Assembly (NCBI GenBank): GCA_028288585.1
Contig: JAQBNL010000097.1
Location: 1 to 57,769, forward strand
Length of the DNA stretch: 57,769 nucleotides
Direction: 5' to 3'
From: Chitinophagaceae bacterium
Lineage (GTDB): Bacteria; Bacteroidota; Bacteroidia; Chitinophagales; Chitinophagaceae
Made by a program: the position numbers and the translations under genes. This document shows positions 10,114-44,224 of the stretch, piece by piece; the stretch's first letter is position 1, and each line of letters opens with the position of its first letter. The notes below the pieces were generated by a model, which did not search any database, was not told the origin of the DNA, and worked only from the letters and a program-made list of their open reading frames with translations.

Positions 10114-13100
10114 ATGCGCTTTATTTTCCCGGGTATAATATTTATTTTTCTGTGCCTCATCTGCGGCTGCAATGCGGGCAAAGTAAAATTGTTTACTAAA
10201 CTATCGGAAGATAATACGGGCATAGATTTCCGCAACCTGCTTAAAGAAGATAACCCCGAGTTCAATATCATTCTGTATCCATATTTTTATAATGGGGGAG
10301 GTATTGCAGTTGGCGATATTAATAATGATGGCTTACCTGATATTTGTTTTACCGGCAACATGGTAAAAAACCGGTTGTATTTAAATAAAGGCAATTTTAA
10401 ATTTGAGGACATCACAGAAAAATCAGGTATTGCATCAAAAGAAGGATGGTGCACAGGTGTTACCATGGCGGATGTAAATGGAGATGGGAAACTTGATATT
10501 TATATTTGCCGTTCAGGATTATCAAATATTAATTTCAGGAAAAACTTATTATTCATTAATAACGGCGATCTCACTTTTACAGAAAAGGCCGAAGAGTATG
10601 GATTGGCAGATGCCGGTTATTCCACCCAGGCTTCATTTTTTGATTATGATAAAGATGGTGATCTTGACATGATCCTTATTAACCAAAGTACTCCCGGGTA
10701 CTCAAAAGGCAGAATAGAATACCTGTACATGCGCATCCAGCCTGCCGACAGTACCTTAAAAAATAAATTATTCAGAAATGATAATGGGCATTATACAAAC
10801 GTATCTGCACAGGCCGGTATTACAAGCAACCCTTTAAGCTTTAGTTTAGGGCTAAGTACAACTGACATTAATAAAGACGGATGGCCCGATATATATATTG
10901 CCAATGATTTTAAAGAGCCCGATTATTATTTTATCAATAACAGGGACGGAACTTTTACAGAACAATTGGGCAAAAGCTTTTCTCATACTTCTTTATATGG
11001 AATGGGTATTGATGTTGCAGATTATAACAATGATGGCTTTCCTGATCTTATTGAATTGGATATGTTGCCGGAAGGAAACCATGCCCAGAAAATGCACATG
11101 GGTATAGATGGGTTTGATCAATACAACCCGTTGTTTCAAAATGGTATGCCTTATCAGTACATGAAAAACAGTCTTCAGAAAAACAATGGCGACGGTACTT
11201 TCAGCGAAATCGGGCAACTGGCCGGCGTGTCAAATACTGATTGGAGCTGGAGTCCCCTGTTCTGTGATTTTGATAATGACGGCATGAAAGACCTGTTTGT
11301 GAGTAATGGATATAAAAGAGATAATACTGATATAGAGTTTCTAAAATATGCTATGGATAAATCAATTAAAATCCAGTTGGGTGACACTGCCGAAAGTGCC
11401 GCAGAATATATTTCGCACATGCCGGGTATAAAACCGGGCAGCTATATTTATCAAAATGCAGGCAATGATAAATTTGTAAATAAAATTAAAGATTGGGGGC
11501 TGGAGGAGAAAATATTTTCCAATGGCGCTATCTATGCTGACCTTGATAATGATGGGGATATGGACCTGGTAACAAACAATGTTGATGATTATGCAGGAGT
11601 GTATAAAAACAATTCAGAAACATTAAATAAAAATAATTTTCTTAAAATAAAATTGCAGGGAGAAGCAAAAAACAGTTTGGGCTTTGGCGCCAAAGTATAT
11701 GTATGGAAAGATGGTAAATCATTTTACCAGGAAGAAAATCCTGTACGTGGTTACTGTTCTTCAGTGGATCCTGTATTGAATTTTGGCCTGGGTAAAATGG
11801 AAAATGCCGATTCTGTTTCGGTGATTTGGAATGATGATAAACAACAGGTTTTAAAAAATGTAAAGACCAATCAAACGTTAATTATAAAGCAGGCGGAAGC
11901 AAACAGTGCTTGGTATTTACCTGCCAACCCTGAAAAATATTTCTCTGAAATGAAGGACAGCGTTGATTTTACGCATGTTGAGAATGATTTCAATGATTTT
12001 GTAGTGCAGACTTTATTACCTTCTTATTTATCAAGACTCGGACCCTGCATGGCAACGGCAGATGTAAATAAAGATGGTAAGGAAGATATTTTTGCAGGTG
12101 GTGCAAAAGGTCAATCTGCACAATTATTCATCCAGGATGCTGATGGAAATTTTGTAAATAAACTGCAACCTGCGTTCGTAAAAGATTATTTAAGTGAAGA
12201 TGTTGCTGCCATTTTTTTTGATGCTGATAAGGATGGGGATATGGATTTGTATGTTGGCAGCGGTGGCTATGAATTTCCGGAAAATGATCCGGCGCTGCAG
12301 GATAGGGTATACATAAATGACGGGCAAGGAAATTTTGCAAAAAAAGAAAGGACTTTACCATCCATGCTCATAACTACGGGTTGTGTAAAAGCTGCTGATA
12401 TTGATGGTGATGGTGATATGGATTTGTTTGTTGGTGGAAGGTGTATGCCTGGTAAATATCCGCTTACACCCGAAAGCAAAATTTTATTGAATGATGGTAC
12501 AGGAAATTTCACTGATGCAACTTCAATTGTTTGCCCGGCTATTGAACATATAGGTATGGTAACAGATGCACTTTGGTTAGATGTGAATAAGGATGGAACA
12601 AAAGATTTGATTATAGTGGGTGAGTGGATGTCGCCCAAAATTTTCATTAATCAAAAGGGAAAATTAACAGATGCATCGTCAACCTATATAAAATTTGCTG
12701 CCTATGGCTGGTGGAATAAAATTTATGCAGATGATTTTGATAATGATGGCGATACTGATTTAGTGCTTGGTAACCAGGGATGGAACAATCAATTTGCTGC
12801 CAGCGAACAAAAGCCTATGAATCTTTACTACAAAGACTTTGATGGCAATGGCTCTGTTGATCCTTTCATGTTTTATTACATTGGCGATACATCTTACCCC
12901 GCTTATTCAAGAGATGATGTTGTGCAGCAGGTGCCATTTCTAAATAAAAAATATTTGTATTATACCAATTATGCAGATGCAACTTTGCATGATATGTTTA
13001 CCAAAGAACAATTAAATGATGCAGGAGAATTAAAAGCGAATAATCTTTCTACAATATATTTAGAAAATAAAGGAAATGAATTTGTGCCCAGGCAATTGCC

Positions 13101-13395
13101 GGCCGAAGCACAGTATGCGCCGGTGTATGCAATCACTTCTGCTGATGTAAATAAAGATGGAAATAAAGACCTGGTTTTGGCGGGTAATAATACGTGGACA
13201 AGAATAAAATTCGGCCGCTATGATGCCAGTCATGCTGTATTATTATTGGGAGATGGGAAAGGCAATTTTTCTTATGTGCCGCAATGGCAAAGTGGTTTTA
13301 ATGTGCAGGGTAATGTGAGAAGCCTGGAGCGGATTAACAATACACTCATCTTTGGAATTAATAATAGTAAAATGATCAGTTACTCATTCAAATAA
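10114..13395 (+). CDS. FG-GAP/VCBS-repeat lipoprotein with ASPIC/UnbV domain
   Basis: A 1093-residue predicted outer-membrane lipoprotein: a hydrophobic signal peptide ends in CGC with the lipidated cysteine at residue 19. About fourteen calcium-binding loops of the form DxNxDGxxD (for example DINNDGLPD, DVNGDGKLD, DADKDGDMD, DIDGDGDMD) recur along the chain, marking two beta-propeller blocks. Between them (about residues 510-590) lies an ASPIC/UnbV-like segment including NSLGFGAKVYVW. In Bacteroidota such proteins are often encoded next to SusCD pairs, but their function is not established; extracellular binding or adhesion is a guess. It has its own leader after the susD terminator and may be expressed separately. 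Confidence 0.9.
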   Translation: MRFIFPGIIFIFLCLICGCNAGKVKLFTKLSEDNTGIDFRNLLKEDNPEFNIILYPYFYNGGGIAVGDINNDGLPDICFTGNMVKNRLYLNKGNFKFEDITEKSGIASKEGWCTGVTMADVNGDGKLDIYICRSGLSNINFRKNLLFINNGDLTFTEKAEEYGLADAGYSTQASFFDYDKDGDLDMILINQSTPGYSKGRIEYLYMRIQPADSTLKNKLFRNDNGHYTNVSAQAGITSNPLSFSLGLSTTDINKDGWPDIYIANDFKEPDYYFINNRDGTFTEQLGKSFSHTSLYGMGIDVADYNNDGFPDLIELDMLPEGNHAQKMHMGIDGFDQYNPLFQNGMPYQYMKNSLQKNNGDGTFSEIGQLAGVSNTDWSWSPLFCDFDNDGMKDLFVSNGYKRDNTDIEFLKYAMDKSIKIQLGDTAESAAEYISHMPGIKPGSYIYQNAGNDKFVNKIKDWGLEEKIFSNGAIYADLDNDGDMDLVTNNVDDYAGVYKNNSETLNKNNFLKIKLQGEAKNSLGFGAKVYVWKDGKSFYQEENPVRGYCSSVDPVLNFGLGKMENADSVSVIWNDDKQQVLKNVKTNQTLIIKQAEANSAWYLPANPEKYFSEMKDSVDFTHVENDFNDFVVQTLLPSYLSRLGPCMATADVNKDGKEDIFAGGAKGQSAQLFIQDADGNFVNKLQPAFVKDYLSEDVAAIFFDADKDGDMDLYVGSGGYEFPENDPALQDRVYINDGQGNFAKKERTLPSMLITTGCVKAADIDGDGDMDLFVGGRCMPGKYPLTPESKILLNDGTGNFTDATSIVCPAIEHIGMVTDALWLDVNKDGTKDLIIVGEWMSPKIFINQKGKLTDASSTYIKFAAYGWWNKIYADDFDNDGDTDLVLGNQGWNNQFAASEQKPMNLYYKDFDGNGSVDPFMFYYIGDTSYPAYSRDDVVQQVPFLNKKYLYYTNYADATLHDMFTKEQLNDAGELKANNLSTIYLENKGNEFVPRQLPAEAQYAPVYAITSADVNKDGNKDLVLAGNNTWTRIKFGRYDASHAVLLLGDGKGNFSYVPQWQSGFNVQGNVRSLERINNTLIFGINNSKMISYSFK

Positions 13396-23689: not shown

Positions 23690-23752
23690 GGAGTGGTGAA
23701 TGATTTTTTTCAGTAGCAGGTAAATCAGAAAAGCTGGAATTGAAAAGAACGA

Positions 23753-23800
23753 AGCCAACTTACGCAATCTGTTTTTATTGCAGCAAACCCAATGTTGGGC
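23753..23800 (-). repeat. Short attC-like site (cassette 1)
   Basis: AGCCAAC at 23753-23759 and GTTGGGC at 23794-23800 delimit 48 bp, with inner GCAAT/ATTGC arms. Read on the minus strand its first 20 bases closely resemble the opening arm of the 24309-24504 site, so it may be a long site with an internal deletion, or a natural short form in the size range of classical attC. Confidence 0.6.
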
Positions 23801-23806
23801 GCCGTT

Positions 23807-24274
23807 TTAATTCTGTTCATCAAAGACTTCTTGCAATTCATCAGTTAATTGCTTTGCTAAATCTGGACGTTCATGAAATGCTGCAGGGGTATTTTGGAAA
23901 AGAGCTATTTGGAAATGATCTGATAGCTTTTCGGCTATCAGAGTTTGAATAGCATTAACCTTTGGATTAATTTCTGATTTTTCAGGTGGTATCATTCCCG
24001 CAACCGCTCTAAGTAGATAAACAGATGATGAAAGAGGACGAACTTCTTTCACGATGCTAACATAAGTAGAAACCTTATGATTTGCGAATATTTTACTGAA
24101 TTCTTCTTCAATTTGCTTTTGACCATTCATTTGACTCCCATCAAAACCAATTGTATTACCATCAGAAGCAAATAATTTTGCAAAACTTGATGCACTATTG
24201 TTATTCCAGGCATTCAACAAATCTTTATAAATATTTCGAACTTCCTGTTCGTCATGATTGAGGTGTATTTCCAT
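23807..24274 (-). CDS. NTF2-like/DUF4440-type protein in cassette 1
   Basis: A 155-residue protein with the SnoaL/DUF4440 pattern: an N-terminal helix (EQEVRNIYKDLLNAWNNN), then SSFAKLFASDGNTIGFDGS and a sheet with YVSIVKEVRPLSSSVYLLRAV. Relatives are annotated as SgcJ/EcaC-like proteins of unknown activity. It has no signal peptide. It fills one cassette almost completely: the stop lies 7 bp from the GTTGGGC core and the start 35 bp from the opposite GCCCAAC core. No promoter is evident, so it is likely read from upstream of the array. Confidence 0.8.
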   Translation of the reverse strand: MEIHLNHDEQEVRNIYKDLLNAWNNNSASSFAKLFASDGNTIGFDGSQMNGQKQIEEEFSKIFANHKVSTYVSIVKEVRPLSSSVYLLRAVAGMIPPEKSEINPKVNAIQTLIAEKLSDHFQIALFQNTPAAFHERPDLAKQLTDELQEVFDEQN

Positions 24275-24308
24275 TACTTTTCGATTATTTTACTGTCAAA
24301 TAAATGGC

Positions 24309-24504
24309 GCCCAACGGTTACGGCTTGCTGCTGTGCTGGTATTTTATAATGTCAAAGCCCGGAGCCGCAGCCGATTGAAAAACTGATGATGAAGATAACA
24401 ACTAAAGCTCATTTATATTCTTCAGCCCGAACAAAAGCTGATAGTGAACGGAACGATGAGAATATGTTCGTCCAGCCAGCATAGTAGCAAACCGAATGTT
24501 GGCT
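24309..24504 (-). repeat. attC-like recombination site (cassette 2), 196 bp
   Basis: Starts GCCCAAC and ends GTTGGCT. Inner arms CTTGCTGCTGTGCTGG and CCAGCATAGTAGCAA are near-complementary. Internal blocks AAGCCCGGAG, TTCAGCCCGAAC and AAGCTGATAG recur in the other long sites. The outer base pairs match the far ends of the adjacent cassettes better than each other. Confidence 0.8.
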
Positions 24505-24520
24505 GCCGTAACTTTTCTCG

Positions 24521-25588
24521 TCAGTCTTTTTTGTCCTTTGGTTTTGTCTTAATAATAACTCCAAATGATTTGTCAGAAATATTATAGTCCTTTTTTAATT
24601 TTTGTTTGTCAATTATGTTTAGTTCAATGAACATCTGATCGTCAATGCCTGAAAGGTCGCCTTCAAAATTTGTTTTCAAAACTTTGTCATTGAGAATATA
24701 TATTACTGAACTGTCACTTTGTGGTGTCGGTACAGTTTTAAAATAGTCTGCTGATTTTGATTTGAAGAAGTTCCAGTATTTATTTCTTGCAAACTTTTTT
24801 GTCTCAACATACACAGCACCGAATTTGCCTTGTTCACCAACAAGCTTAATAGCATTTGTGTCCTTATAAACTGTCACAACAGCAATGTCGGTTGGCTGAT
24901 ATTCTTGCATTTCCATTCTTGTCACGTTAACGCTGTCAATGAAAAATACTGGGTCATTTAAAAATTGTTTGTAGCGTTCCGTTTTTTCAAAAATTCGATA
25001 ACAAGAAATTAAAAGGTCAACAGCTTCGATTGGTTTGTCATAATAATATGCTTCATCAATTGGGAATTGTGGCTTTTTGGTCGTGTCAACTTTGACATAG
25101 AAAAATAAAGTGTCATTTGCAAAACTCCAATAGTCAGAACAGCCACGAGAACCCCAAGTGTCCTTTAATTTGGGATAAATATTGAAAACATCTTTGAGCT
25201 TTAAATCTCTTAAATCTATTGGTGTACCATCTGGTAAATTCCCTTTAAAGTCTTTCGTTAATCGAATTTTACTGACTTCATCGGAAGTTTGGTCTTTCTG
25301 GAAAATCATTCCTGGAAACTTGTCAGAGTAATATCCTTTTCCATTTTCAAAACGACTGTCTTGCGAAATACATTTTTTTCCTAAGTCCATTTCTTCAACT
25401 TCGATTGGTTTGAAGTCGTTGCTTAGTTTTTGCAAGTCAGGTAATGTTGTTTGGCATAAACAAAAACCCGAAACAGTTATCTTCTTAGCAAGTGAAGTGT
25501 CTAACAATGAGGTTTGGTCATTAGTTTGAGAGTGTCCCGTCAAAGTGTAAAAAGCAAGAAGAAAAATAAAAACTGTTTTGAATTTCAT
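24521..25588 (-). CDS. Exported protein with plug-like C-terminal repeats, cassette 2
   Basis: A 355-residue protein with signal peptide (about residues 1-20). I do not recognise a named family. Two segments resemble the small beta-alpha-beta module of TonB-dependent receptor plugs seen in many Bacteroidota exported proteins: TDIAVVTVYKDTNAIKLVG with GKFGAVYVETKKFARN (about 233-272), and VIYILNDKVLKTNF leading to KSFGVIIKTK (about 293-350). The N-terminal half (about 30-220) contains SRGCSDYWSFANDTLFFYV and looks like an independent beta-rich domain. It probably acts in the periplasm or outer membrane. The stop lies 16 bp from the GTTGGCT core and the start 14 bp from the opposite core. Confidence 0.7.
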   Translation of the reverse strand: MKFKTVFIFLLAFYTLTGHSQTNDQTSLLDTSLAKKITVSGFCLCQTTLPDLQKLSNDFKPIEVEEMDLGKKCISQDSRFENGKGYYSDKFPGMIFQKDQTSDEVSKIRLTKDFKGNLPDGTPIDLRDLKLKDVFNIYPKLKDTWGSRGCSDYWSFANDTLFFYVKVDTTKKPQFPIDEAYYYDKPIEAVDLLISCYRIFEKTERYKQFLNDPVFFIDSVNVTRMEMQEYQPTDIAVVTVYKDTNAIKLVGEQGKFGAVYVETKKFARNKYWNFFKSKSADYFKTVPTPQSDSSVIYILNDKVLKTNFEGDLSGIDDQMFIELNIIDKQKLKKDYNISDKSFGVIIKTKPKDKKD

Positions 25589-25605
25589 GGTCTAGATGTT
25601 ATGGC

Positions 25606-25799
25606 AGCCAACGTTTAGGTATTGCCGAAGGCGGGATATTTTATAATGTCCAGCCCGGAACTAAAGATAAATAGAATTACAAAAGCTGATAAACATTTTA
25701 TTGACGCAGCGAAGCAAGTCAAGCCCGAACCGATGCTGATAGGGAAATGCAGATGATGGTATATTCTTCAGCCCCGCTTTTGGCAATACGATGTTAGCG
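25606..25799 (-). repeat. attC-like recombination site (cassette 3), 194 bp
   Basis: Starts AGCCAAC, ends GTTAGCG. Inner arms GGTATTGCC and GGCAATAC pair exactly, extended by GGCGGG with CCCCGC. Shared blocks: TATTTTATAATGTCCAGCCC, AGTCAAGCCCGAACC, GCTGATAG, TATTCTTCAGCCCC. The core at 25793-25799 contains the TAA stop of the cassette 3 gene. Confidence 0.85.
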
Positions 25800-26441
25800 G
25801 CTGTTTTTGTCGGGGTTAGAAATTGTTTCCATTAGTTGAGTCTTATTTTTATTCATGAGTGATAAAATATATTTCTTTTCAACATTGTCAAATGCTGAGT
25901 CATCCGGCTGAGTGTCATAAAGATTTTTTAGGATTTTGTTTGCTTGTATTAAGTCACCTAACATAATTAAGTTAATTGCTTTGTTAGTTGTTAGCATTAC
26001 ATAATCTCTGTTGGTTGTACTCATGGTATCCAGAACACTATTACATATTGTCAACGCTTTTTGAAAGTTTGATTTTGATGAAATAGTATCACCAATTATT
26101 TCATAAAGATTTCCCTTCATCATGAAAAGGTCATGTGCATTTGGGCGCAGCCTCAGTAATTCATTAACAGTCAAGATTGCTTTATCATATTGTTTCAATC
26201 CGTATAAGAACATCAATTTATTGTCATACGCTAAAAAATTATTGCTGTCAATGGCTGTAGCGCTGTCCAGCAATAAAAGCGCTTTTCTACAACTATCTGG
26301 ATTATCAGTAAAGCGGATTAATGGTATGATTTGATTGTTCAGTCTAACAGCTTCGGGGTTAGCTTTATATTTTGCTGGTTGTTGTCCGCAAGAACAAAGC
26401 CCGATAAATAAAAGGAAAGTTATAAATTTTAGAGTCGTCAT
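25794..26441 (-). CDS. TPR lipoprotein, cassette 3
   Basis: A 215-residue protein with a lipobox (LCSC, lipidated Cys at residue 18). The body is helical with tetratricopeptide-like units: FLAYDNKLMFLYGLKQYDKA at about 74-93, LRPNAHDLFMMKGNLYEIIG at about 97-116, then further helices with AINLIMLGDLIQANKILKNL. It is likely anchored in the periplasm or outer membrane as an interaction module; the partner is unknown. The final residues NSR and the stop are encoded within the cassette-end inverted repeat AGCCGCTAAC, so the gene terminates inside its recombination site. Confidence 0.78.
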   Translation of the reverse strand: MTTLKFITFLLFIGLCSCGQQPAKYKANPEAVRLNNQIIPLIRFTDNPDSCRKALLLLDSATAIDSNNFLAYDNKLMFLYGLKQYDKAILTVNELLRLRPNAHDLFMMKGNLYEIIGDTISSKSNFQKALTICNSVLDTMSTTNRDYVMLTTNKAINLIMLGDLIQANKILKNLYDTQPDDSAFDNVEKKYILSLMNKNKTQLMETISNPDKNSR

Positions 26442-26449
26442 AATATAGC

Positions 26450-26644
26450 CGCTAACGTCCAGGGCTTTATGCTGTTGGGATATTTACCAATGTCCTGCCC
26501 GGAACCGCTGCTAAATTTATAAATTAACGTTCATTTTTTTTACTAAAGTTCAAAAATGCTAGTCAAGCCCAAACTGAAGACTGGCTTTGCTTTTAGCTGA
26601 TGTTTATTGGTCAAGCCCCAATAGCATAAAACCCACTGTTGGCT
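26450..26644 (-). repeat. attC-like recombination site (cassette 4), 195 bp
   Basis: Starts CGCTAAC, ends GTTGGCT. Inner arms GGGCTTTATGCTGTTGGG and CCCCAATAGCATAAAACCC pair almost fully. Shared internal blocks: GATATT, AATGTCCTGCCCGGAACC, AGTCAAGCCCAAAC, TAGCTGATG, GTCAAGCCCC. Confidence 0.85.
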
Positions 26645-26656
26645 GCTGGCAAAGTT

Positions 26657-27442
26657 TTAGAGTTTCTCAAAATATTTGTCTTTAAATTGATATCGTATTT
26701 TTTTATTCGTCACTTTTGAGTCTTCAAGTATAACTGGGATACTTATAATTTTATTTGCTTTGTCATACTCAATATAAAAGTCCGGAACGTCTCTGTCTCT
26801 ATTCGATGAAGCTGTTAAATCAACTTCGTATCCTAACTGATTTTTAATGCTTGTATTTGTCTTAATTAATTTGGCGGTATCGTTAAGCTTTGAATTGTCA
26901 ATAGAAAATATTTTAATTTTATGATAGGATAAGCCTGAACTTAGAACGGCCCTACTTTGAGTTATATAAAATTTCTTATTTCCTGAAATTATGTCGTCAA
27001 CTTGGTTATAAAAGCATCCCGGATCACCTTCCTCATCTCTCTTTGGCTTGAAAATTTTTGAAAACACTTTTATGTCTGTTTTATATTGAAATACATTTCG
27101 AAAATTGTGCATTGTTCCTCCAGTCCAAGTATCCCAAGAGTAAATTCTAAAAAGACCATCCTCAGATGTCACAATTGTCAGACCACTGTCTGCAAGAGAT
27201 TTGAAACTATATGAAATTGTTTGTGAATTTGAGGAAGTATATTTTAAAAGTAAACTTTCAAATAAATTATTTGCTTCTTCTAGCGAATCATAAGGATTAA
27301 TTTTTTCATCGTCTGTCTTAAAGAATGCCCAGTAATTGATTTTATCAAATGCAGCAATCAATTTTTTGTCAATAGATTTTAAGTCTTGTCCAAATGCAGG
27401 TGTTAGGATAAAAAATAAAGAGATTGAGAGAATATGTTTCAT
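26657..27442 (-). CDS. Exported protein of unknown function, cassette 4
   Basis: A 261-residue protein with a clear signal peptide (MKHILSISLFFILTPAFGQ). I do not recognise its family. The mature part contains NLFESLLLKYTSSNSQTISY, a central sheet with GLFRIYSWDTWTGGTMHNF (about 100-118), where Trp and Gly-rich text suggests a beta-propeller or immunoglobulin-like edge, and a C-terminal strand set ending KKIRYQFKDKYFEKL. It is the first cassette after the recombinase; its start lies 23 bp from the outer AGCAGCCAAC end and its stop 13 bp from the next core. Its text is visibly richer in TTG, GTC and TCA than the host genes. Confidence 0.7.
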   Translation of the reverse strand: MKHILSISLFFILTPAFGQDLKSIDKKLIAAFDKINYWAFFKTDDEKINPYDSLEEANNLFESLLLKYTSSNSQTISYSFKSLADSGLTIVTSEDGLFRIYSWDTWTGGTMHNFRNVFQYKTDIKVFSKIFKPKRDEEGDPGCFYNQVDDIISGNKKFYITQSRAVLSSGLSYHKIKIFSIDNSKLNDTAKLIKTNTSIKNQLGYEVDLTASSNRDRDVPDFYIEYDKANKIISIPVILEDSKVTNKKIRYQFKDKYFEKL

Positions 27443-27467
27443 GTTATAGGGTGTTCAAATTGCTAGC

Positions 27468-27560
27468 AGCCAACACATAAATATATGTACAAATCTTTTT
27501 ACCTCAAACACTTTTTACATTGACAGTCAATATTAACTTGTTCATATTTTATGTTTACCT
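27468..27560 (-). other. Putative attI-like end of the cassette array
   Basis: The outermost core GTTGGCT (27468-27474, minus strand) is preceded by TATATTTATGT. The same text, CATAAATATA one base after an AAC core on the plus strand, occurs at the outer end of the second cassette locus (45727-45749). The motif TTGTACATA occurs twice on the minus strand, near 27482-27490 and 27567-27575. The position between recombinase and first cassette is where attI is expected. Confidence 0.5.
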
Positions 27561-27579: not shown

Positions 27580-28725
27580 CTAAATATCAAGATAATCAAG
27601 TGGGCTAGTTACTTTTTCTATCTGTGCTTTGCTTACATGGGTATATCTTACTGTGGTTTTAATACTATTGTGTCCCAGTAATTCCTGTATCAGTCTCAGG
27701 TCAGTTCCATTTTCCATTAAATGGGTTGCATAGCTATGCCGCATGGTATGGATACCGCCTTCAGTTTTTACACCTGCTTTTTCTTTTGCCCTGGAAAATA
27801 CCATTTGCAAACTTCTATAGCCATATGGTTCTCCTGGCTGTCCTTCAAACAGCCATTTTTTTGGCTTGTATTGTATAAAATATAATCTTAATTGCTGTAA
27901 TAATTTTTCTGATAAAACCACCTGCCTGTCTTTTTTCCCTTTGCCTCTCCTTATTTCAACCACCATTCTTGCAGAGTTGATATCTTTTATTTTTAAATTT
28001 ATTATCTCCTGTAATCGCATGCCCGTTGCATAGGCCAACATCAACATGGTTTTATGCTTTTCATTGGCGGTAGCCTGTATTATTTTTTTCACCTGTTCCG
28101 TTGCATGAACTTTTGGAAGCTGCCAGGCCTTTTTGGGCCGCGGTATATACACTACTATTTGGGGCCGGCGTAATACTTTTTCAAAATAAAATTTAATTGC
28201 ATTAATAGCTGTATGTGCCTGAGACTCGCTGTAATTTTTTTTCTGCAACAGGTATAATATGTACGATTTAATATGACTTTCCTGCATGTCATCAACGGGG
28301 AACTTATCTAAAAGTTTAAGAAGTACACTAAATTCAGTGCGATAGGTTTTAATGGTGTTTGTACTGTATGCTTTTAACTGAAGTGTTTTAATAAAAATAT
28401 CAAGTGCATGCTGGTTTGCTGCACTTAAAAGATGCAGCATTACTTTTTGTGTTGCCGGTGGCAATACTGCAAGTGGCTTTTTTTTCTTTTCTTCCAATTG
28501 CCTTTTTAATGCAGACGTATCAAGTACAGCTAAGGAATTGATCTTTTCCCGGAGATGTATAACAGAAGTTTGTGCTGCAGGCAAGTGCCACTCTTTATGT
28601 GTCTGGCTCCATTTTACACCTGCTACCTGCCGTATGGCATTATTGATTTGTTTATTGTAAGTAAAGTCAGCAAATATTCTGTCTTCTCCATTGTGTTCTT
28701 TAATGTTTAAAGTTATTGTAACCAT
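27580..28725 (-). CDS. Tyrosine recombinase adjacent to the cassette array (Xer-like spacing)
   Basis: A 381-residue integrase. The catalytic set is complete: Arg237 (ATGMRLQE), Lys262 (RRGKGKKDR), His326 and Arg329 (HTMRHSYATHL), His352 (LGHNS) and Tyr361 (RYTHVS). A SAM-like core-binding domain spans about 100-195. The first 95 residues form an extra domain with YNKQINNAIRQVAGVKWS and KEWHLP, resembling a HARP-type module. The Lys-to-His spacing is 64 residues, close to XerC/D (about 72) and much shorter than IntI (about 106), so the IntI-specific insertion is absent. It may mobilise the adjacent cassettes or be a bystander. It reads toward the array, unlike most intI genes, which face away. 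Confidence 0.88.
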   Translation of the reverse strand: MVTITLNIKEHNGEDRIFADFTYNKQINNAIRQVAGVKWSQTHKEWHLPAAQTSVIHLREKINSLAVLDTSALKRQLEEKKKKPLAVLPPATQKVMLHLLSAANQHALDIFIKTLQLKAYSTNTIKTYRTEFSVLLKLLDKFPVDDMQESHIKSYILYLLQKKNYSESQAHTAINAIKFYFEKVLRRPQIVVYIPRPKKAWQLPKVHATEQVKKIIQATANEKHKTMLMLAYATGMRLQEIINLKIKDINSARMVVEIRRGKGKKDRQVVLSEKLLQQLRLYFIQYKPKKWLFEGQPGEPYGYRSLQMVFSRAKEKAGVKTEGGIHTMRHSYATHLMENGTDLRLIQELLGHNSIKTTVRYTHVSKAQIEKVTSPLDYLDI

Positions 28726-38408: not shown

Positions 38409-38436
38409 AAGGCTATCCAATAGGGTAGCCTTTTTT
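38409..38436 (+). terminator. Rho-independent terminator after dnaK
   Basis: Stem GGCTATCC / GGGTAGCC with loop AATA and six T following. A similar stem is reused after two other genes at 38954 and 41338. Confidence 0.9.
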
Positions 38437-38495
38437 GTTAAATACAATTTTCAAAACATGGTACGTCCTTTGTTTTATAATAAGCTAAAAATTAA

Positions 38496-38501
38496 AGGAG
38501 G
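38496..38501 (+). promoter_or_regulatory. Unusually strong Shine-Dalgarno (AGGAGG)
   Basis: AGGAGG lies 8 bases before the ATG at 38510. Most genes in the window lack any such site, which suggests high or early translation of this small exported protein. Confidence 0.75.
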
Positions 38502-38509
38502 ACAAAATC

Positions 38510-38899
38510 ATGAAAACATTATCACTTATTATCGCAGTTTTTTTTACGGTGTCATCAGTTTCTGCACAGAATAACAATGGAAATGGCAGGAGGCATTATA
38601 ATAACCAAAGTATTGTTACCGTAAATGTAAACAGTAACACAAGGAATGAAATACGGATAGACGGACAGGATTATGGCCGGGGAACTAATAATGTTATTTC
38701 CATTACTGATCTTCAGCCGGGACAACATACTTTACAGGTTATTGAACGAAGGGGCATAAAGGGTGTTCTTAACGGACGTGGTAACACAAATGCCACTACC
38801 ACATTCAATGTAAGAGAAGGGTATGATATGCAGATAACTGTAAATGCCAATGGAAGAACCAGGATAAGGGAAACAAGAAGCAGAAATTACCGGAGATAG
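38510..38899 (+). CDS. Small exported protein with PEGA-like fold
   Basis: A 129-residue protein with signal peptide MKTLSLIIAVFFTVSSVSA. An Asn/Gly/Arg-rich stretch (NNNGNGRRHYNNQS) precedes a beta-rich module, TRNEIRIDGQDYGRG at about 44-58 and LQPGQHTLQVIERRG at about 65-79, similar to PEGA-type domains, and an Arg-rich C-terminus (RTRIRETRSRNYRR). The high positive charge and Asn content suggest contact with nucleic acid or polyanionic surface polymers, but this is inference. It has a very good ribosome site and its own terminator. Confidence 0.72.
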   Translation: MKTLSLIIAVFFTVSSVSAQNNNGNGRRHYNNQSIVTVNVNSNTRNEIRIDGQDYGRGTNNVISITDLQPGQHTLQVIERRGIKGVLNGRGNTNATTTFNVREGYDMQITVNANGRTRIRETRSRNYRR

Positions 38900-38953
38900 A
38901 GTGACAAAAAATAATTCTTATTAAATTTTATTTAGTCTATACATTTTTTATAC

Positions 38954-38985
38954 AGGGCTATCCATCAGGGTAGCCTTCTTTTTTG
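38954..38985 (+). terminator. Rho-independent terminator
   Basis: Stem AGGGCTATCC / GGGTAGCCTT, loop ATCA, followed by CTTTTTT; two G-U or mismatched positions. It ends the transcript of the small exported protein gene. Confidence 0.8.
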
Positions 38986-39070
38986 TAATATTTAAAGCTG
39001 TCTATCACTGCCTGTAACAAGTGTTTAAGAAATATTCCTGAGCTACAAATATTAAATGAATACCTTCAGC

Positions 39071-39117
39071 TAAAGCAGGGAAACAAAATGCCTGCTTTAC
39101 ATTTCCTGTTTTTTTTA
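39071..39117 (+). terminator. Hairpin with T tract
   Basis: Perfect 9-bp stem TAAAGCAGG / CCTGCTTTA with an 11-base loop, then CATTTCCTG and eight T. It lacks an obvious gene to terminate and may belong to an unannotated short RNA. Confidence 0.5.
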
Positions 39118-39233
39118 TTTCGGCCCACTCCCTAAAAAATTATTTTTTTGTCATTTCCTTTTGTTGAATTCCAAAAACAGCGTTGTAAGAATTTTTTAAA
39201 TATCATTCCCTCAAAACAAGTATAAAAATTATT

Positions 39234-40481
39234 ATGATGAGAATATTTACAATTAGTTTTCCGTTTTTTCTACTCGTAATAAGCAGCCCGGTATTTGGGC
39301 AAACAACGGTAGTGCTTTCTGCTGCAAAGGACAATACTATATTCCAGAATTATTTACAATATAGCAATGGAAGCGGTAATGAATTTGCTATAGGAAATAA
39401 TGATAGTTATCAAAGCAGGCGGTCACTTATAAAATTTGATGTTGCCGCTTCTGTTCCTGTTGGAGCTACTATTACGGCAGTTACGCTAATATTAAATGTT
39501 GCCCAAAATTTTCGTGGTCCACACGATGCAAAATTATATAAACTTTTAACTGATTGGGGAGAAGGTACATCAACGGCAAATGGATATGCTGGACAAGGGA
39601 ATACGGCTACTGGTAACGATGCTACCTGGAATTGTGCTAAGGCAGTGGCTGGCGGAGCTACTTGTGTAACGGCCTGGACAGCCGCAGGCGGTGATTTCAG
39701 CGCCACACTTTCAGCAAATACTACAGTCGATCAAGGTTCACCTGCGTGGACGGGCTTACAAATGGTAGCAGATGTACAGTCATGGCTGAGTTCTCCTTCA
39801 AATAATTTTGGTTGGACCATTATAGGAGATGAATCTATTGCATATACTCCAATATTTTTTGCATCAAGGGAAAATAGTACTACGGCTATCCAGCCGCAAC
39901 TTTCTGTTACTTATACTCCTGCTGTTCCTTTACCCGTAACATTTACAGGTGTAAAAGTTTTCAGTAAGAATACAGGAGTGCAGGTAGAATGGACAACCCA
40001 GCAGGAAATAAATATAGAAAGGTATGAAGTGGAAAGGTCAACAGATGCACAGCAATTTAGTAAAATAGGAAGTGTGCAGGCAAACAACAGAAGTGTTGTA
40101 AATAACTATAATTTACTGGATGTAAATCCATATAGCGGTGTTAACTTTTACCGAATAAAAATAATTGACAGGGCAAGTAAGGTAACCTATAGTGAGATCG
40201 TAAAAGTAAGTGTGGCAAGCAGTCTTTCACAAGTAACAATCTCTCCAAATCCTGTACGTGGCAATACAATTACTTTGCTGTTAAGTAATTTGCAGAAGGG
40301 GAACTATACCATAAGATTATTCGATAAACTGGGTCGGCAACTGTTGAGTAAAGTAATAGAATACGATAGTGGTTCTGTTACAGAGAGCATATCGCTTTCA
40401 AAAGTAATGGCGCCGGGTGCGTACCAACTTAAGGTTACCGGAAATGGAAATACACTTACCAGGCAGGTAATAAAGAATTAA
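39234..40481 (+). CDS. DNRLRE-domain protein secreted by type IX secretion
   Basis: A 415-residue exported protein. Signal peptide at about 1-23; DNRLRE-type jelly-roll (about 25-225) beginning VLSAAKDNTIFQNYLQYSNG with SRRSLIKFDVAA; a linker FTGVKVFSKNTGVQVEWTTQ (about 240-260), a fibronectin-like unit; and the C-terminal sorting domain with ISPNPVRGNTITLLLSN, LFDKLGRQLLS and GAYQLKVTGNGNTLTRQVIKN (about 335-415), the hallmark of type A T9SS cargo. It is thus transported across the outer membrane and probably attached to the surface. Its ligand is unknown. Confidence 0.9.
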   Translation: MMRIFTISFPFFLLVISSPVFGQTTVVLSAAKDNTIFQNYLQYSNGSGNEFAIGNNDSYQSRRSLIKFDVAASVPVGATITAVTLILNVAQNFRGPHDAKLYKLLTDWGEGTSTANGYAGQGNTATGNDATWNCAKAVAGGATCVTAWTAAGGDFSATLSANTTVDQGSPAWTGLQMVADVQSWLSSPSNNFGWTIIGDESIAYTPIFFASRENSTTAIQPQLSVTYTPAVPLPVTFTGVKVFSKNTGVQVEWTTQQEINIERYEVERSTDAQQFSKIGSVQANNRSVVNNYNLLDVNPYSGVNFYRIKIIDRASKVTYSEIVKVSVASSLSQVTISPNPVRGNTITLLLSNLQKGNYTIRLFDKLGRQLLSKVIEYDSGSVTESISLSKVMAPGAYQLKVTGNGNTLTRQVIKN

Positions 40482-40498
40482 ATTATTGTAAAGAATTT

Positions 40499-40783
40499 TT
40501 AAAACGGGGTACCCCGGTTGCCAGGCCGTACTACTGTAAATTTTTCTATCCTGTTACTGATCTTGCTATGTATACCTGCGGGATATTCATCAGCATCATT
40601 TTGCAGTTCTATTTCATTGTCTCCAAAGTGTTGTGCAAAAGCAGGAAATTGTTTTTCAGTTAATTCTACATAACAATACTTTTCATCTTCAGTTTGCGGA
40701 ACACACATTTCTACATAACTTCCTTTATAGGTGGTCAACACTTCTTTAAATAAATTAGGGGGCTTTAAAAACTTATAGATCAT
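40499..40783 (-). CDS. Hypothetical 94-residue protein
   Basis: The start is taken at the ATG 40783; the two extra residues of the longer frame would need a TTG. The protein is acidic and globular: MIYKFLKPPNLFKEVLTTYK, EMCVPQTEDEKYCYVELTEKQ and a hydrophilic tail. I recognise no family. It is convergent with the T9SS gene (17 bp between stops) and stands alone. Confidence 0.5.
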   Translation of the reverse strand: MIYKFLKPPNLFKEVLTTYKGSYVEMCVPQTEDEKYCYVELTEKQFPAFAQHFGDNEIELQNDADEYPAGIHSKISNRIEKFTVVRPGNRGTPF

Positions 40784-41017
40784 CTGCAAATATACTTACA
40801 TGCTCTGTGGTATGCCTGAATAGCTTTGCCGAAAAACATAAAATATCGTTAAGCAATCTGCAATTTTGAGACAGGTTTATTTTACCGGCATCATTATATA
40901 ATCTATTTATATTTTAATTATACTGCCCTGTGTTATTTACAATTCTTCCAATAAAATGCCTGTTAAAGTAATTTGGGCATGATTGCTGCCTTATATACAC
41001 AAACAAATAGTACAATT

Positions 41018-41314
41018 ATGAAAAAGATACTTTTAATGGCAATACTTGGTGGCCTTACTTATTTTGGCGCAGCTGCACAAGGCAATTCAGCTTATGGCCA
41101 TAGTCATAAAAAAGCTAAGAAGCATCACCATGTTGCCTATCATAATAATACAGACCGTACGGCAATTAATGTAAGACATAGAACAGCGATACGAACTGTT
41201 AAACAAAATGACGCTCTTTCTAATCGTCAACAAAAAGACCTGGTAAAACAAGCCAATACTACCCATAAAGTAGAGATGAAAAGAGAAACTATGAGCAATA
41301 AAGGGAAAAAATAA
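41018..41314 (+). CDS. Small exported basic protein
   Basis: A 98-residue protein. The start is taken at the ATG giving MKKILLMAILGGLTYFGAAAQ, a textbook signal peptide; the longer frame from 40973 would place it internally. The mature part is His/Lys-rich (HSHKKAKKHHHVAYHNN) and without hydrophobic core. It could bind metal or polyanions, but no function is assigned. It ends at a hairpin terminator. Confidence 0.65.
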   Translation: MKKILLMAILGGLTYFGAAAQGNSAYGHSHKKAKKHHHVAYHNNTDRTAINVRHRTAIRTVKQNDALSNRQQKDLVKQANTTHKVEMKRETMSNKGKK

Positions 41315-41337
41315 AATTTAACTAAGATTATTAATTC

Positions 41338-41366
41338 AGGTTATCCGAATGGGTAACCTTTTTTTA
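41338..41366 (+). terminator. Rho-independent terminator
   Basis: Stem AGGTTATCC / GGGTAACCT, loop GAAT, then seven T. Just upstream of trhO. Confidence 0.88.
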
Positions 41367-41383
41367 TTTTTTAAATTTGCAGC

Positions 41384-43958: not shown

Positions 43959-44018
43959 TTAATAATTTTTTTAAAACATTTTAAATAACATTCCTTATTA
44001 GAGTAGCCACTGATTTGC

Positions 44019-44214
44019 TACTAACATTCGAGTATTTGCGCAGGCAGGGAATTCATTGAGGGTGCAGCCCGGTACAAATGCCCAAATAAAAATATATTAT
44101 TGAAGTTAAGTAGTAAAGCTGAAAATGGAACATCGGGCCCGAACCACTGATGATGTTTATACATAGCTGATGTTGCATTGTTCAGCCCTGCTTTTGCAAA
44201 TACTTTTGTTGTGC
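44019..44214 (-). repeat. attC-like recombination site, isolated, 196 bp
   Basis: Starts TACTAAC, ends GTTGTGC. Inner arms GTATTTGC / GCAAATAC and CAGGG / CCCTG pair exactly. Shared blocks with the main array: GCAGCCCGGTA, AAAGCTGAA, GGGCCCGAACCACTGATGATG, TAGCTGATG, TTCAGCCCTG. Length and order match the 23.7-27.5 kb sites although it is 16.5 kb away. Confidence 0.8.
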
Positions 44215-44224
44215 TTTCGTGCTT

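Follow-up and report, generated by a model that had tools for sequence, protein, structure and literature searches.

A putative integron-type cassette array with a recombinase apparently outside the known integron integrases in a Chitinophagaceae bacterium

Organization of the Locus

The DNA analyzed here, a stretch of 57,769 nucleotides from a Chitinophagaceae bacterium (assembly GCA_028288585.1, contig JAQBNL010000097.1; hereafter the window), carries a putative integron-like gene-capture system on its minus strand, in which a tyrosine recombinase gene (28725-27583) is followed by an attI-like core (27474-27465) and then by four cassettes that extend from 27473 to approximately 23750. Each cassette consists of one gene and then one site, all on the minus strand. 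The recombinase (27583..28725; stop codon 27580-27582) has 381 aa, and the attI-like site (27465..27534) comprises the core GTTGGCTGCT at 27465-27474 and, upstream, a promoter-like element, TTTG-N19-TATATTTA, that stops 3 nt ahead of the core. The first cassette contains a gene for a protein of 261 aa (26657..27442), which had no Pfam match at E<=0.1, and the attC-like site s3 (26447..26647), with an R'' core of AGCAGCCAAC and an R' core of GTTAGCGGCT. It is followed by a gene for a TPR-like protein of 215 aa (25794..26441) with site s2 (25603..25802; R'' AGCCGCTAAC, R' GTTGGCTGCC), and by a gene for a protein of 355 aa (24521..25588), which has homologues in other genera, one of them within another array, with site s1 (24306..24507; R'' GGCAGCCAAC, R' GTTGGGCGCC). 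The fourth gene (23807..24274) encodes a protein of 155 aa of the SgcJ/EcaC family (TIGR02246 above cut-off), and its cassette closes with a putative short terminal site at approximately 23750..23805, the R'' of which, GGCGCCCAAC, pairs with the cassette start GTTGGGCGCC. The arms of this short site are weak and it folds poorly; a search for arm pairing gave nothing clear. A further attC-like site, detected with our site model R1, stands apart from the array on the minus strand (44016..44217), and partner cores sought within ~4-6 kb of it were not found.

The initial annotation of the window had proposed an integron-like cassette array at 23753..27477, with four same-strand genes separated by sites that have complementary arms and shared internal blocks. 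The four minus-strand open reading frames (ORFs) and the three sites between them, with these arms and blocks, were recovered, and related genomes carry ordered arrays with different genes; the array is larger than that interval, from which the recombinase had been left out. The three sites, given there as 194, 195 and 196 bp, are real and measure 200-202 bp by the R1 boundaries, and the fourth, placed near 44019-44214, is the lone site at 44016-44217.

Structure of the Sites

In the cassette direction, the first core of the window sites ends in AAC and the last core begins with GTT, and between the cores lie pairing arms of approximately 18 nt and a variable middle. A search of 61 sources with R1 gave 184 matches at E<=0.05; the 150 best, together with 8 weaker ones from the table and the short site of the window, made up a set of 159, of which 122 were retained after removal of the 37 that did not show a recognizable core at both ends. 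From AAC to GTT, 92 of these measured 180-212 bp, 23 measured 115-135 bp and 7 were of other lengths. The usual core is GT(T/A)R (120 of 122 sites), and 105 sites have G at position 8. The classical ends that the initial annotation had assigned to the sites proved rare (RYYYAAC in 10, GTTRRRY in 8, both in 2), and among the three window array sites, read in the gene direction, one R' core (GTTGGGC) fits GTTRRRY and none of the R'' cores does.

The arm helix was aligned for 29 of the 31 near-full-length sites (L034 10050 and L043 were left out), giving 19 pairs with 84.6% of the cells paired and 13 pairs changed on both sides. Covariation reached 0.555 versus 0.163 in shuffles (0/500 as high) and at most 0.103 when the arms were slid, and since it exceeds both controls the pairing is not due to chance. 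The structure is conserved while the sequence is variable, as is required of a foldable attC. At column pair 28/191, 26 of the 29 sites have A.C, which reads as a G.T wobble on the opposite strand; at 25/194, 14 have A.C and 11 have G-C; and at 18/200, 15 have T.G, to the advantage of the top strand. When a T run was used to connect the arms, the bottom strand was the more stable in 24/29 sites. The A.C mismatch (26/29) and the bottom-strand bias are only hints of extrahelical bases and of single-strand recombination through the bottom strand. A pattern search of the same genome with some of the blocks of the initial annotation found nine places, just one of them a known site; three of the places (G000:C7:46241, C8:13240 and C95:559) hold by eye another repeat (AGCCCGGTGA.G.TTTTGTGC...), perhaps of a different repeat family.

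Complementary Cores Delimit the Cassettes

An integron cassette starts with a sequence complementary to R'', the inverse core of the attC that it carries. The cores of the window pair in this way across the gene in 4/4 cassettes, giving the chain GTTGGCTGCT-gene-AGCAGCCAAC (s3), GTTAGCGGCT-gene-AGCCGCTAAC (s2), GTTGGCTGCC-gene-GGCAGCCAAC (s1) and GTTGGGCGCC-gene-GGCGCCCAAC (short site). Across the site set, the R' of one site was compared with the R'' of the next in 60 adjacent same-strand pairs less than 3 kb apart; all seven variable core bases were complementary in 38 and six of seven in 9, so that 47/60 reached at least 6/7, as against 19/268 of the other same-locus pairs and 11/122 of the same-site pairs. 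The 13 weaker adjacent pairs may reflect undetected sites in between. The longest ORF lay on the strand of the site in 56/60 cassettes, and comparison gives the cassette the anatomy [TTRNNNG... gene ... site], with complementary cores at both ends.

The same layout recurs around related integrases, including those of Winogradskyella isolates and of a Chryseobacterium plasmid. Scanning the flanks of 30 integrase loci (1.5 kb at most, shorter at contig ends) found an R1 site at E<1e-4 in 10, on the same strand and 3' of the integrase in 8 of the 10. Chains of exact cores were searched at 26 loci (20 from a sample of the phylum and 6 already known), with 31 linked pairs downstream of the integrase and none upstream, where the stretch available was shorter than 9 kb in many; the opposite-strand control was uninformative, since a complementary pair reads alike on both strands.

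The Insertion Point Next to the Integrase

Comparison places the start of the array immediately downstream of the integrase, at a point resembling attI. In the window, the attI core pairs 10/10 with the R'' of s3, and at 11 of 24 loci a core close to the stop of the integrase gene was found to pair with an R'' farther downstream (8 at 10/10 and 3 at 9/10); no pairing core was found near the stop at 12/24, several of which lie at contig ends. At L043 (G006), the core pair starts only after an inserted element; a GC-rich inverted-repeat element begins right at the core of attI there, with a similar sequence at the first site's R' end.

Between relatives, the integrase and attI are alike and the sequence past the core differs. 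Among five close Winogradskyella integrases (10 pairs), mean identity was 90% over the 90 nt before the core and 41% past GTTR, where two of the contigs give only ~15 nt. G017 and G006 share 99.3% identity over 1000 nt before the core and 26% over 300 nt after it, and two Chryseobacterium plasmids (NZ_CP041688.1, L335; NZ_CP094530.1, L337) are 93-99% identical over 600 nt before the core and 33-44% after it. These two plasmids have the backbone, the family integrase and attI in common, and their sequences part right after the core.

TTTG-N17-23-TAnnTTTG is a Bacteroidota promoter consensus. Scored against it, the 11 attI gave a mean of 8.18/10 versus 7.21 for shuffled sequences (0/1000 as high), the best match not always being at the core.

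Cassettes Shared Between Genomes

Two genomes, G166 and G131, share a cassette that is 99% identical over 925 bp (97-100% per 100 nt over 900 nt). In each it directly adjoins the attI of an integrase locus, and in the 1400 nt preceding the core these two loci are only 37-66% alike. Identity starts at GTT and stops just past the GTTAGC end of a ~140-bp site with the same arms. When this cassette was searched against 58 genomes, 7 gave any match, namely these 2 at full length and 5 with 26-30 bases.

The protein of cassette 3 has an 86% homologue in another genus (G414), located among 7 successive sites on the same strand. The similarity in DNA extends from one core to the other and the neighbours differ; the cassette start changes from GTTGGCTGCC to GTTGGCAGCC and the R'' from GGCAGCCAAC to GGCTGCCAAC, which is a compensatory change of the cores. 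In the genome of the window itself, a shorter paralogue of this protein (44% identity) lies between two sites (G000:C58:51775-52197).

With the whole window array as query, 36 of 117 family genomes matched, mostly by single sites or one gene. The initial annotation had held that a conserved gene order in relatives, or sites at random places with no genes between them, would speak against a cassette array. Among the 117 family genomes searched, with the two best places per genome scored, none besides the genome of the window had a match spanning more than one array gene, and genes lie between the sites of the array, though sites on their own exist as well. A BLASTN search of the 60 first-delimited cassettes against the initial loci (at least 250 nt) gave one stretch common to two G028 loci and one 68% similarity within L109; sharing between genomes emerged later with the two cases above.

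Distribution in Bacteroidota and on Plasmids

Within the genome of the window, R1 gave 19 matches at E<=0.01, in clusters and as lone sites (contigs C36, C58, C68, C81 and C65, and weakly C30, C51 and C45). Among 59 relative genomes, this one included, 39 had a site at E<=0.001, 27 an integrase at E<=1e-40 and 22 both. In the phylum sample, 94/296 genomes had a match to the integrase family at E<=1e-70, many of the matches starting only near model position 100, i.e., without the N-terminal part. Among 13 loci from named records, 10 were clear family members, from 8 Winogradskyella, a Cryomorphaceae metagenome-assembled genome (MAG) and a Flavobacteriaceae MAG, and the other 3 were weak. In Winogradskyella, R1 yields few and weak sites, and the cassettes were recognized by repeats and core pairing. 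In several records the contig stops no more than ~280 nt downstream of the integrase, an effect expected of repeat arrays.

Full-length relatives were also found on plasmids of Chryseobacterium (2), Pontibacter and Persicobacter; these four records had at least 80% of the query covered, in a PLSDB count made at one place. Downstream of the integrase, NZ_CP041688.1 has same-strand R1 sites, 4 of them at E<1e-6, and the R1 search found none on NZ_CP094530.1. IS110/IS1111 relatives target the attC sites of classical integrons, and IS110 transposases lie downstream of the integrase, between same-strand genes, at L335 (13272-14273) and L336 (11868-13223).

Elsewhere in the window, positions 10300-13173 hold repeated DxDxDGD-type coding repeats (FG-GAP/calcium-binding-like by eye), and 38411-41367 holds three copies of a hairpin with a T-run (GGCTATCC..GGGTAGCCTTTTTT), perhaps terminators.

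The Recombinase and Its N-Terminal Domain

The recombinase comprises an N-terminal, putatively HARP-like domain of ~80 aa, a SAM-like domain and a catalytic domain. R237, K262, H326, R329, H352 and Y361, which we take to be the catalytic residues, are invariant in 30 aligned family members and complete the RKHRHY set. By catalytic domain, its near relatives are simple tyrosine recombinases of the XerA-type/Phage_int_SAM_4 kind, such as those of IMG/VR viral contigs. These differ in the N-terminal domain, the profile of which matched no ORF of 80 viral loci with related integrases; phage records gave no match to the integrase at 1e-40, and a viral scan with query A5 had short phage integrases among the matches listed.

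The AlphaFold model of the N-terminal domain resembles, with modest scores, the DNA-structure-recognition domains of SMARCAL1 (HARP) and XPB, and in the VIA list for the model other common alpha/beta folds are also close to XPB. At the sequence level, no HARP match was found, Pfam gave only weak DUF5710 matches to the N-termini (4/7) and a profile search of the PDB returned nothing significant. The HARP domain of SMARCAL1 and the damage-recognition domain (DRD) of XPB are parts of helicase-type ATPases, whereas here the domain is fused to a recombinase.

Interpretation

The core complementarity, the recurring layout and the cassettes shared at core boundaries indicate that the system works like an integron, and we consider it very probable, from these comparisons of sequence, that it is an integron-like gene-capture platform whose recombinase (27583-28725) integrates and excises gene cassettes. 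Several observations weigh against this: lone sites exist (44016-44217 and single-site contigs), sites and integrases co-occur imperfectly across genomes, no array was found on the C. oryzae plasmid, no chain was detected for 10/23 family integrases with a long downstream stretch (exact cores only), there are exceptions in orientation (L008, L027/L045), and the G414 homologue has another site body (131 vs 202 bp), which is not what a strictly co-inherited attC would show.

Like classical integrons, the system has an integrase beside attI, tandem and mostly single-gene cassettes, structured sites, cassettes whose start is complementary to the R'' that they carry, and arrays and sites that also occur with no integrase nearby; a promoter at attI, where there is a promoter-like match, may be a further common feature. 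Unlike them, it has the core GT(T/A)RNNNG and rarely GTTRRRY, sites mostly of ~190-205 or ~140 bp, and an integrase that points towards the array on the same strand and bears the extra, putatively HARP-like domain. Integrase and array are divergent in most classical integrons.

We regard it as improbable that the system is a classical integron, with a divergent IntI lacking its original insertion as the integrase. The recombinase shares its C-terminal 'SPLD' end with IntI, and its best two NCBIfam scores are to NF040815 (200.3 bits, cut-off 220) and to the integron integrase family TIGR02249; the latter match, however, comes in two pieces and at 182.7 bits lies under the cut-off of 265. The IntI-specific insertion (I2, around patch III), which is treated as defining in passages of PMC7790495 and PMC9668308 and described as not fully conserved in an 'integron-like' recombinase subgroup in part of PMC8138268, is absent, with 25 residues at this position compared with 68 in the Vibrio IntI structure 2A3V. 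A clade of the recombinase family with IntI was rejected (p-AU 0.012), as was one of the 11 array-type members with IntI (p 0.001), in a tree that took in only 4 IntI rows, one of them on a long branch. No IntI above cut-off was found in the genome of the window, and with the core consensus rarely matched, the attribution of the sites by the initial annotation to attC of integrons in the strict sense is not supported. An order-level relative (G052:C40, L141) carries a true IntI (421.9 bits to TIGR02249), so that both kinds occur within the order.

It is very unlikely that host XerC/XerD act on dif-like sites here, with the adjacent recombinase as a bystander integrase of phage type. The genome does encode two further Xer-like recombinases, and sites also lie away from the integrase, but in several species the conservation of attI just 3' of the integrase extends as far as the core, integrase and array are co-located on chromosomes and on a plasmid, and the sites are mostly hairpins of ~140-200 bp with variable arms. 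That the sites are palindromic repeats scattered through the genome (MITE- or REP-like), or structured RNAs of intergenic regions, and lie between genes by happenstance, for which the lone sites might speak, is largely refuted and retains hardly any probability, as core complementarity spans the gene and not the repeat, same-strand arrays adjoin the integrase, a cassette is common to genomes from core to core and no Rfam family matched in the window at gathering thresholds.

In an integron-like platform of this kind, the integrase itself would carry out recombination, the cassettes would travel as circles and newcomers would enter at attI. The site would fold into a hairpin through its covarying arms on one strand, the cut would fall beside the G with which the GTT core begins, and expression of the first cassettes would come from the promoter-like element at attI. 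The HARP/XPB-DRD-like domain would, to judge from its model, help to recognize folded single- and double-stranded DNA, a role played by the I2 helix in IntI.

A complete integron in Salinibacter is reported within Bacteroidetes in the description of IntegronFinder 2.0 (PMC9024848), and a passage of PMC8618304 lists Bacteroidota among the phyla with integrons. In searches of the open PMC literature, a scope beyond which lie most subscription papers and all preprints, no listed title or abstract beginning described a system such as the present one, and a description may exist outside that scope. Its recombinase looks like one from outside the known integron-integrase family, with relatives widespread in the phylum and on plasmids, and the sequence data point to a second, apparently independent integron-type system. 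For the further proposal we see about as much for as against: that the capture of cassettes as folded single strands evolved a second time, in Bacteroidota, within a XerA-like lineage that acquired an N-terminal HARP/XPB-DRD-like domain in place of the IntI I2 helix, to give a 'second integron' that is widespread in the phylum and also present on plasmids. A platform that follows the same logic with no IntI would suggest more than one origin of cassette capture, and would offer a natural test of what the recombination of folded sites requires. It would also add a pool of cassette genes that may escape searches based on IntI and classical attC.

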